This document shows positions 10,251 to 28,030 of a DNA stretch of 64,000 nt, in pieces. A program made the translations under genes and the position numbers. The notes beneath the pieces were generated by a model. It saw nothing but the letters and a program-made list of their open reading frames with translations. It searched no databases and was not told the DNA's origin. The DNA comes from Bacteroidota bacterium (lineage in GTDB: Bacteria > Bacteroidota > Bacteroidia > Chitinophagales > Chitinophagaceae). The stretch is from positions 1-64,000 of the forward strand of contig JABDGU010000005.1 in assembly GCA_013285905.1 (NCBI GenBank), in the 5' to 3' direction. Numbering within the stretch: position 1 is the stretch's first letter; each line of letters opens with the position of its first letter.

Positions 10251-11915
10251 ATGCCAAAAATACCTTTTTGGGTCTTCATTTTGCTCGCTTTGTTGCATTT
10301 ATCTGCAATACGCATAGATACTATGGATGTGGACGCATCGCAATATGCCGAAATGAGCCGCGAAATGATGCTCAGTGGAGACCATCTGCACCTATATGAT
10401 CGTGGTGCAGAGTATCTCGATAAACCGCCATTTCTCTTTTGGGTAAGTTCTGCCAGCATGAAGGTGTTTGGTGTAAACAATTTGGGCTACAAACTGCCAT
10501 CCATACTATTTGCATTCCTTGCCATGTACGCCACTTATCGCCTCGCAAAGCTCCTTTATAATGAAGCTACAGGACGAATGGCTGCCTTAATACTCGGCAC
10601 TTGCCAGGGTATGTTTCTCATGACAAATGATATACGTTGCGATACCATATTGATGGCATGGGTCATAACTGCCATTTGGGCCATAAAAGAATGCGAGATA
10701 AAACGCCGCTGGCAATTTGTTTTGCTGGGTGTATTAAGCATAGCATGCGGTATGATGACAAAGGGCCCAATTGCTTTAATGGTACCTGCCTTTTGTTTCG
10801 GCAGCGAATGGGTTTTAAAACGCAAATGGAAAAACATTTTTAATCCCTGGCATCTATTGGACCTTTTGCTTATTGCCATATTGTTAATTCCCATGAGCAT
10901 CGGCCTCTATCAGCAATTCGATATGCACCCGGAAAAAACAGTGAACGGCCTGCAGCATGTATCCGGCTTACGTTTCTTCTACTGGTCCCAGAGTTTTGGC
11001 AGAATAACCGGAGAAAGCCCCTGGCAAAACGGCGCAGATATCAGCTTTCTGCTCGTCAATATGCTATGGTCTTTCCTGCCCTGGATATTCCTCTTACTCA
11101 TCGCTTTGGCTATAAATATCAGCACACTTATCAAACAAAAATTTCGCCTGCAGGATGGCCAGGAGTGGATTACCACAGGCGGTTTTTTATTGGCCTATCT
11201 CTCTCTTGGTTCCTCCCGTTATCAATTGCCGCATTATATTTTCGTAGCATTTCCTTTAGCTGCCATCATTGTTGCCAAACTCTTAAAAGATTTCTTTGAG
11301 GCGGAAAAATACAAACGCCTTTACACAATAATAAAACCTGCTATGGGCATTATTATTTTATTATTGTTCTTCGCCATTCTTGTTCTTATAACCTATATTT
11401 TCCCATCAGGCATTTTCGCCATTGTCATATGGATTCTTAGCTTTGCTGCATGGTTATACATCGCATTCAAGAAAAACATTCCTGGCAAAATGCTTTGGGT
11501 AGCCGCCTCTGGTATGATGTTCCTTAATATTTTTGTTACACATTTCTTTTATGCCCCCTTGCTTCAGTACCAGATGGGTTCTCAATTAGGCCGCTTTATT
11601 AACCCTGGCAGTAACCCTGAAGATAAAATAATAGCTTACCGGGCAATAACAGTTTACAAAGTAGGCGACCCCCTTAATTCCCTGCCATTCTATGCAGAAC
11701 GAGTTATCAAAAGTTCCGACAGCTTACCCAATGCATCCAACAGTTATATCATCACCATGGACGATGGCATTGCCGACCTGCAACAAAAGGGATATGCTTT
11801 TGATATAATAAAGAAAGGAGAACGCTTTAAAGTAAGTGAACTCACGCCGGAGTTTATCAATCCCAAAACAAGAAGCAAGGCTGTAAATAATTACTATTTG
11901 GTTAGACTGAGATAA
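10251..11915 (+). CDS. Glycosyltransferase family 39 (ArnT/PMT-like) membrane protein
   Basis: An integral membrane protein of about 554 residues. After a first membrane segment it has the acidic loop DTMDVDASQYAEMSREMM with the Asp-Glu region typical of ArnT/PMT-type transferases, then LDKPPFLFW, a family hallmark for binding the lipid-linked sugar. About a dozen membrane segments follow and a soluble tail from about residue 450. Such enzymes move a sugar from a polyprenyl phosphate donor to lipid A or another envelope acceptor on the periplasmic side. The acceptor here is unknown. I moved the start to ATG 10251, after the putative -7 box; the upstream extension MRLFLQTENYT looks non-coding. 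Confidence 0.85.
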   Translation: MPKIPFWVFILLALLHLSAIRIDTMDVDASQYAEMSREMMLSGDHLHLYDRGAEYLDKPPFLFWVSSASMKVFGVNNLGYKLPSILFAFLAMYATYRLAKLLYNEATGRMAALILGTCQGMFLMTNDIRCDTILMAWVITAIWAIKECEIKRRWQFVLLGVLSIACGMMTKGPIALMVPAFCFGSEWVLKRKWKNIFNPWHLLDLLLIAILLIPMSIGLYQQFDMHPEKTVNGLQHVSGLRFFYWSQSFGRITGESPWQNGADISFLLVNMLWSFLPWIFLLLIALAINISTLIKQKFRLQDGQEWITTGGFLLAYLSLGSSRYQLPHYIFVAFPLAAIIVAKLLKDFFEAEKYKRLYTIIKPAMGIIILLLFFAILVLITYIFPSGIFAIVIWILSFAAWLYIAFKKNIPGKMLWVAASGMMFLNIFVTHFFYAPLLQYQMGSQLGRFINPGSNPEDKIIAYRAITVYKVGDPLNSLPFYAERVIKSSDSLPNASNSYIITMDDGIADLQQKGYAFDIIKKGERFKVSELTPEFINPKTRSKAVNNYYLVRLR

Positions 11916-26102: not shown

Positions 26103-26437
26103 CCGCAGGCCTTAGTGAAAAACAAAAATAACTATTTCTTGCTCCCTGCACAGCATATATTGCCTAAGTATATTCATTTGTGATTTTTTTTACTTTTTAT
26201 TTTCAACGATAAGTGAGGATGACAAAATATAATATTACTAAATGAGGCCGTTATTTTTCATTTTTTTCAAGGCGAAAAAACTGAGAATAGGAAGCTATTT
26301 AGAGCTTTTTTCAACGCAGAAAAAATGGAAAAGAACAAGTCAATTGCTAATATTTATTTTGTTATCCTCACTAAGCATGGCACAAATTATTACTTTTACA
26401 CCCACATTTGATACTGGTAAACAATCATAAATTATCT
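26103..26437. other. Non-coding stretch holding an inverted-repeat-bounded element
   Basis: A left arm TAAGTGAGGATGACAAAATA (from 26210) and a right arm TATTTTGTTATCCTCACTAA (to 26374) are inverted copies with two differences over 20 bases. They bound about 165 bases with no good gene. A 62-codon frame at 26242-26430 is open but looks unlike a protein. Confidence 0.6.
26210..26374. repeat. Inverted-repeat-bounded element of 165 bp
   Basis: The arms are at about 26210-26237 and 26348-26374 and extend with one indel into AATATTA. The interior is AT-rich with two further partly complementary T-rich and A-rich stretches. It may be a small non-autonomous mobile element or a long hairpin. It lies just upstream of yicC. 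Confidence 0.5.
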
Positions 26438-27313
26438 ATGCTATATTCAATGACAGGTTTTGGGCGTGCGGAATCTACTATCAATGGCCGGCAGGTGGTT
26501 GTCGAACTTAAATCGCTTAACGGCAAACAATTTGATGTAAATACCAAAATGCCCCCTATACTGCGCTCCTACGAACTGGATATACGCAACCTGCTTAATA
26601 ATCTTTTACTGCGCGGCACCATAGATCTTACAGTTACGGTGAAACATGAAGGGGCCTCTAAGCCAATGACTGTAAACACGGGCCTTGCCATTTATTATTA
26701 TCAGAGCATGATGCAGATAGCAAAACAGTTAAACATCCCTGAAGAGAATGTACTGTCCACCCTAATGCGCATGCCCGAAGTAGTGGCGCCCGAGCAGGAT
26801 GTGCTGCCGGAGGAAGAATGGCTGCAGGTGCAGAAAGTCATAGAAGAGGCCGCCCGTTTGCTGATGGAACACCGCAAACATGAGGGTTCTGCTTTATATA
26901 AAGACATGCACCAACGCATCAGTAACATTGAGTCTCTGCTGCAGGATATTTTGCCGTTCGAGGGCCAGCGTACAGATAAGATAAGAGCTAAACTTACCCA
27001 GTGGCTCAGCGACATGTCTGGCAAAGACAATATAGACCCCAACCGTTTCGAACAGGAAATGATCTATTACCTGGAAAGGATTGATTTCTCCGAAGAAAAA
27101 ACAAGGCTGAAACAGCATTGCATCTATTTCCATGATACGATAAATAAACAGGAAGTATCTATTGGCAAAAAACTCGGCTTCATCTTGCAGGAAATAGGAA
27201 GGGAAATAAACACCCTGGGCTCCAAAGCAAACGATGCTGAGATACAGCAGATAGTGATAAATATGAAAGACGAACTGGAAAAGGCCAAAGAACAAATATT
27301 GAATATACTTTGA
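26438..27313 (+). CDS. YicC-family endoribonuclease
   Basis: A protein of about 291 residues with the family N-terminus MLYSMTGFGRAES and the C-terminal DUF1732 domain (about 205-291) with DINEELHR-like EIGREINTLGSKANDAEI and a QIVINMKDELEKAKEQI tail. YicC proteins are endoribonucleases involved in RNA turnover. The frame is open from a TTG at 26408, but the canonical family start is ATG 26438, which I use. gldH follows after 18 bases, so the two are probably in one transcript. Confidence 0.9.
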   Translation: MLYSMTGFGRAESTINGRQVVVELKSLNGKQFDVNTKMPPILRSYELDIRNLLNNLLLRGTIDLTVTVKHEGASKPMTVNTGLAIYYYQSMMQIAKQLNIPEENVLSTLMRMPEVVAPEQDVLPEEEWLQVQKVIEEAARLLMEHRKHEGSALYKDMHQRISNIESLLQDILPFEGQRTDKIRAKLTQWLSDMSGKDNIDPNRFEQEMIYYLERIDFSEEKTRLKQHCIYFHDTINKQEVSIGKKLGFILQEIGREINTLGSKANDAEIQQIVINMKDELEKAKEQILNIL

Positions 27314-27331
27314 TTATTACATTGTTACTCT

Positions 27332-27850
27332 ATGAAATTCCAAATTCCAAATTCCAAATTCCAAATTCCACATCATGGAGTTCTATTAGGCTTTTTGCTT
27401 TGCCTGCTCATAACAGGCTGCATGCCTTCCCCTTATTTCCAAAGAGAGGAGCCGGTTCCCCAAAATGCATGGTCCTACGATTTTAAGCCTTCTTTTAAAT
27501 TTGATATTAGCGATACCACTTCCCCTTATCAGCCTTATTTTGTTATCCGTCATACCGATGCATACCCCTATTCTAATATTTACATATGGGTATATGCCAA
27601 ACAGCCGGGCGATACTTCTTTTCACAAAACACGTGTTAACATCCAGCTTGCAGAAAACACCGGTAAATGGCTGGGTCGCGGCATGGGAGAGCTATATGAA
27701 CAATATATGCCCCTTGCATTTAGCGATACAGATCCGAAAAGATTCTTTAAAAAGAAAGGTACCTACGAGATACGCCTCGAACAAAATATGCGCATTAACC
27801 CTTTGCCTGAAGTTTTGCATGTGGGATTGAGGATTGAAAAGATTAAATAA
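27332..27850 (+). CDS. gldH: Gliding motility lipoprotein GldH
   Basis: A 172-residue lipoprotein with signal peptide and lipobox LLITGC. FKFDISDTTSPYQPYFVIRHTDAYPYSNIYIWV and GKWLGRGMGELYEQYMPLAF are characteristic of GldH, a protein required for gliding in Flavobacterium. The first 13 codons are built from about five tandem 7-bp units (AAATTCC), read as KFQIPNSKFQIP. Because 7 is not a multiple of 3, loss or gain of a unit would shift the frame. The start codon lies directly before the repeat and no good in-frame ATG follows it before the lipobox. Confidence 0.88.
   Translation: MKFQIPNSKFQIPHHGVLLGFLLCLLITGCMPSPYFQREEPVPQNAWSYDFKPSFKFDISDTTSPYQPYFVIRHTDAYPYSNIYIWVYAKQPGDTSFHKTRVNIQLAENTGKWLGRGMGELYEQYMPLAFSDTDPKRFFKKKGTYEIRLEQNMRINPLPEVLHVGLRIEKIK
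27336..27369 (+). repeat. 7-bp tandem repeat (AAATTCC, about five units) at the start of gldH
   Basis: Head-to-tail AAATTCC units lie immediately after the ATG of gldH. Similar spaced CCAAATT/CCAATTCC occurs near 29098. Unit gain or loss by slippage would change the reading frame. Confidence 0.7.
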
Positions 27851-27853
27851 TAC

Positions 27854-28030
27854 CATTTAGACATTAATAGTAGATGACGGCTTAATTATCTTTTTCCAAA
27901 GCCCTTGTTGCTCGCCAGGCCAACAACAAATTTTCTGACAATAGCCCCGTCCTTCAGGGCGGGGGTGTTATGAAATAAAGGGCGGCTTTAGCCGAACCTG
28001 GGATGATAAGAGTGGTTTAATGTCTAAATG
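27854..28030. repeat. MITE-like element, best copy (M2), with perfect 14-bp terminal inverted repeats
   Basis: The left end is CATTTAGACATTAA (27854-27867) and the right end is its exact reverse complement (28017-28030), 177 bp overall. Inside are TTGTTG/CAACAA arms (about 27905-27928), CCCCGTCC-TTCA-GGGCGGGG (27945-27964, one G-T pair) and CGGC-TTTA-GCCG (27983-27994). The degenerate copy at 7811-7936 shares ends and loop sequences. There is no reading frame of note. It lies between gldH and a histidine kinase gene. Confidence 0.75.

Follow-up and report, generated by a model that had tools for sequence, protein, structure and literature searches.

A perfect heptamer array directly after the gldH start codon of a Chitinophagaceae genome is probably a copy of a dispersed repeat

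Simple-sequence contingency loci undergo slipped-strand phase variation in bacteria such as Haemophilus and Neisseria. Many bacterial genomes contain an excess of heptameric repeats, which are attributed to polymerase slippage, lie mostly between genes, and combine fairly conserved positions with variable length (PMC4692102, PMC4679880). Described units include TAACTGA in Beggiatoaceae, Cyanobacteria, and some Bacteroidetes (PMC4679880), as well as GGGAATC in Xanthomonas and GGGGATT in Nostoc (PMC4692102). The lipoprotein GldH is needed for gliding and chitin use and stabilizes GldJ and GldK (PMC9127263); gldH null mutants form no biofilm (PMC8444969) and are viable (PMC7965970). An initial annotation had described gldH as required for gliding in Flavobacterium, in agreement with the abolition of gliding upon its loss in F. 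johnsoniae (PMC9127263).

In the window (the whole 64-kb stretch of DNA that was analyzed), we examined a heptamer array that directly follows the start codon of a gldH gene. The relevant features are:

26408–27313, plus strand: yicC-family endoribonuclease gene, 18 bp upstream of gldH (profile matches, open reading frame)
27310–27324, plus strand: upstream TTG codons at 27310 and 27322, in the gldH frame when the array has 1, 4, or 7 units
27332–27850, plus strand: gldH, gliding motility lipoprotein gene, 172 aa (PF14109, TIGR03511, open reading frame)
27332–27334, plus strand: gldH start codon, ATG
27335–27370, plus strand: perfect (AAATTCC)5.1 array, open in all frames, translated as KFQIPNSKFQIP, which forms the signal-peptide n-region
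27371–27421, plus strand: remaining signal peptide (HHGVLLGFLLCLLITGC), which together with a two-codon start corresponds to the signal peptides (19 residues) found in the nearest relatives
27419–27421, plus strand: Cys30 of the GldH lipobox, ITGC

The product, whose N-terminal sequence is MKFQIPNSKFQIPHHGVLLGFLLCLLITGC, matches PF14109 (E value 8e-33) and TIGR03511 (score above the cut-off) in profile searches and has a lipoprotein signal peptide, as expected of GldH.

The array is real. With 5.14 copies and 100% matches, it has the top tandem-repeat score in the window, and the roughly five AAATTCC units that the initial annotation placed directly after the ATG are thus perfect and far beyond chance. 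It is the sole perfect run of at least three heptamers in 464 kb of the genome, where a second-order Markov model predicts 0, and the 21-mer (AAATTCC)3 occurs only at gldH across the whole 2.5 Mb assembly. That assembly is a metagenome bin, 60.8% complete and in 129 contigs, as might lead one to suspect an assembly artefact. We regard this as highly improbable, as the 36-bp array fits well within one read, the reading frame continues unbroken through it, and similar arrays occur in other assemblies.

A yicC-family gene is likewise the 5′ neighbor of gldH in several relatives. At locus L130 (G001:C338) of a same-genus genome, the contig past position ∼4382 departs from Chitinophagaceae sequence within yicC and enters GC-rich, proteobacterial-looking DNA; this contig is a probable chimeric assembly. 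Just 3′ of gldH, positions 27890–28000 hold a dispersed intergenic repeat containing a CCCGTCCTTCAGGGCGGGG-type palindrome, with more than 10 copies over this genome and a genome of the same genus. A candidate RNA hairpin around the gldH start codon was rejected, being no better than shuffled sequences (z −0.8). The genome contains type IX sorting domains; a search for GldM gave 0 matches, as did its positive control.

Gain or loss of a 7-bp unit shifts the gldH frame, as had been argued from the sequence. When arrays of 0–9 units were translated, full-length GldH was obtained from the ATG only with 2, 5, or 8 units, and all other numbers gave products of 9–60 aa. The accompanying statement that no in-frame ATG follows is wrong, since codon 31 (27422–27424) is an ATG; positioned just past the lipobox cysteine, it would yield no signal peptide. 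The stretch separating array and lipobox contains a single canonical start, the TTG of codon 22 (27395), from which only nine residues remain through the cysteine. Starts beyond the repeat, which the initial annotation would have held against a switch, are therefore present, but neither is usable, and the ATG at 27332 is the only usable gldH start. Because the upstream TTGs enter the gldH frame at four units, and two family members (G085 and G168) apparently start gldH at a TTG, a four-unit "off" allele might be leaky.

Having a unit that is not a multiple of three, a 5′ coding position, and a frame that shifts upon gain or loss, the array could in principle serve as an on/off switch. One explanation is that the locus is a contingency locus, in which heptamer slippage toggles GldH, and thus gliding and type IX secretion, and selection keeps the array. 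The restriction of full-length product to three unit numbers fits this explanation, as does the fact that loss of GldH in F. johnsoniae is not lethal and ends gliding, chitin use, and biofilm formation (PMC9127263, PMC8444969, PMC7965970). An array of five units is short for such a role, however, and in view of the evidence from the genome and its relatives given below, we consider a selected switch unlikely.

AAATTCC is not peculiar to gldH. When 0.72 Mb of the genome was scanned for 28-mers differing from the array at no more than 5 positions, we found 13 sites including the gldH array (12 others), versus 0 in five Markov shuffles. Permuted control units gave 0 sites in the same scan, and the related units CAATTCC and AAATCCC gave 10 and 6, respectively. 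As most degenerate copies are intergenic or sit at the edges of genes, AAATTCC has the properties of a dispersed repeat: one unit recurs at many genome sites beyond chance, mostly intergenically and within genes only at permissive places.

In the family, (AAATTCC)3 is present in 22 of 296 genomes, with many loci in G107, G184, and G247, and many of the relatives' perfect arrays are intergenic, often adjoining other heptamers. The reversed unit CCTTAAA, intended as a control, is itself amplified in G183, G161, and G134 (at most 33 matches per genome), and the favored heptamer differs from genome to genome. Where G000 and G001 were compared at L132:8432, the flanks align and the heptamer array falls within an unaligned gap. 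More dispersed elements, roughly 80–300 bp and with many copies per genome, lie at L132:1285–1570 and 11397–11750 (G000:C33), and one of them overlaps a degenerate heptamer array. At L083:1123–1522, a heptamer array lies 35 bp 5′ of a gene for a 23S rRNA intervening-sequence protein; a general tie between the heptamer and such genes was rejected, as this was a single case.

Perfect AAATTCC arrays also lie in frame within five genes of relatives:

L085: icmF (fused)
L088: OstA/LptA-like gene
L093: dnaX
L077: NadR-like gene
L006: AIR-synthase-like gene

These arrays encode (S)KFQIPNS, the same peptide as in gldH. In the NadR-like protein the array falls inside the matched Pfam domain; in the other four it falls outside. 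A frameshift in dnaX through a change in unit number is expected to be lethal, and the array there is therefore not a switch; by the same reasoning, AAATTCC in essential and housekeeping genes does not act as a switch in those genes. The presence of the same array in dnaX and other essential genes also counts against a contingency locus at gldH. Thus, the mere presence of a frame-shifting repeat beside an ATG does not establish a phase-variation switch, since essential genes carry the same repeat in frame.

Neighboring species, relatives of the kind in which the initial annotation proposed to compare unit numbers, carry no array at gldH. In the nearest gldH relatives (mature parts 66%–69% identical), the signal peptide is 19 residues long and lacks the array; here it has 30 residues. 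An in-frame start was present in 133 of 135 distinct gldH 5′ regions, the exceptions being L297, which is at a contig end, and L358, which is in frame from an upstream TTG. No clearly out-of-frame gldH, and hence no clear off allele, was detected among these 135 regions from natural genomes, which counts against toggling by slippage. Of 333 good family genomes, 330 have a detected GldH, a distribution that looks like selection for the on state.

Heptamer runs of other units do occur at gldH. Period-7 runs (at least 10 matches) were detected in the signal-peptide codons of 6 of 61 gldH orthologs, compared to 0.05 expected after codon shuffling, and periods other than 7 gave none. In an extended set comprising the 105 bases up to the lipobox from the 135 distinct 5′ regions, 10 of 135 contained such runs, two of them (L030 and L060) just 5′ of the ATG; again, no runs of other periods were found. 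The units include:

L056: TTTTTTG
L044, L051, L054, and L057: TTTTTAC or ATTTTTT
L299: TTTTTAT
L358: AAACTCC

At L358/L369 (G230:C95), the codons of the gldH signal peptide include the palindrome GCTGCTTGCCGGACAAGCAG and (AAACTCC)4, which remain in frame when read from the upstream TTG.

Period-7 runs were absent from ∼600 other genes with signal-peptide-like N termini and from an EnvC-like secreted protein examined in 29 of these genomes. In two control screens of ∼640 and 700 genes with hydrophobic N termini, which were overlapping sets with gldH copies included in the totals, heptamer runs were found in gldH alone. A rough Fisher test of the gldH excess gave p values of about 1e-4 (∼five independent events) or 0.004 (three events), in counts that ignore relatedness and with three in-depth genomes picked for having a gldH array. 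Given these features of the sampling, the small number of events, and the gldH copies in the control, the enrichment over other signal-peptide genes is only suggestive and marks gldH as an unusual heptamer site.

Two explanations bear on this clustering. The first is composition: T-rich hydrophobic codons and a relaxed n-region would tolerate heptamer slippage more readily than the rest of the coding DNA, and the gldH signal peptide is especially rich in F, L, and Y. Although the T-rich arrays do encode the hydrophobic core, the codon-shuffled signal peptides fell far below the observed count, other signal-peptide genes lack runs, and the AAATTCC array is not hydrophobic, making this explanation very unlikely. 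The second is recurrent contingency: across Chitinophagaceae, independent heptamer arrays would arise repeatedly in the gldH signal peptide, and their slippage would turn gliding and type IX secretion on and off in part of the population. Runs of differing units in several lineages, confined to period 7 and to gldH, suit any contingency locus, as do signal peptides of equal length built from different homogenized units, which gain followed by loss would leave. At L056, five units are followed by 11 bases to the cysteine, and at L299, four units by 12, a pattern that could be a weak trace of past slippage in which a unit change was compensated, weak because the mature parts are only 72% identical. 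On the other side, the signal peptide is fixed at 20 aa across the TTTTTAC clade, and there are only about five independent events. We therefore think recurrent switching rather improbable. We found no paper on heptamer-driven switching of gliding, and such a site would, to our knowledge, be the first known simple-sequence switch of the gliding or type IX machinery.

The explanation that we favor, and consider probable, is that the gldH array is a copy of the dispersed heptamer in a tolerant signal-peptide n-region, its capacity for frameshifting being a by-product. The repeat would have entered, or expanded in, the n-region directly after the ATG. GldH would have stayed in frame because AAATTCC has no stop in any frame and the net gain is about 33 bp. 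The n-region would thereby have become 11 residues longer, and we infer that the longer signal peptide is tolerated, with lipidation and function probably unchanged. Slippage of a 7-bp unit would give gldH-off variants at some rate, which we infer to be low; such variants would be incidental, not the product of an evolved switch. Two observations count against the dispersed-copy explanation. The sole perfect copy in the genome is at gldH, which suggests recent slippage or expansion, and the concentration of period-7 runs at gldH (versus none in the other signal-peptide genes) is at odds with plain random insertion.

The on/off switch proposed by the initial annotation is thus only partly upheld. 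Its frame argument stands, and the gldH runs of different units favor it, but the repeat is dispersed, occurs in essential genes, and is absent at gldH nearby. The array is real and ordinary in kind, and an unexplained side result is that, in several lineages, heptamer runs cluster at the signal peptide of gldH and at none of the others sampled.

Like simple-sequence contingency loci, the gldH array is perfect, has a unit not divisible by three, and lies right after the ATG of a gene for surface machinery. Unlike them, it has few units, no clear off alleles among its orthologs, and a repeat that is shared with essential genes. AAATTCC resembles the known dispersed heptanucleotide repeats in having a 7-bp, genome-specific unit that is scattered mostly between genes or at gene edges, with perfect and degenerate units mixed and sometimes within open reading frames. 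It differs from these repeats in being stop-free in all frames and able to sit in genes, and the gldH array differs further in lying just past a start codon, where it is translated.
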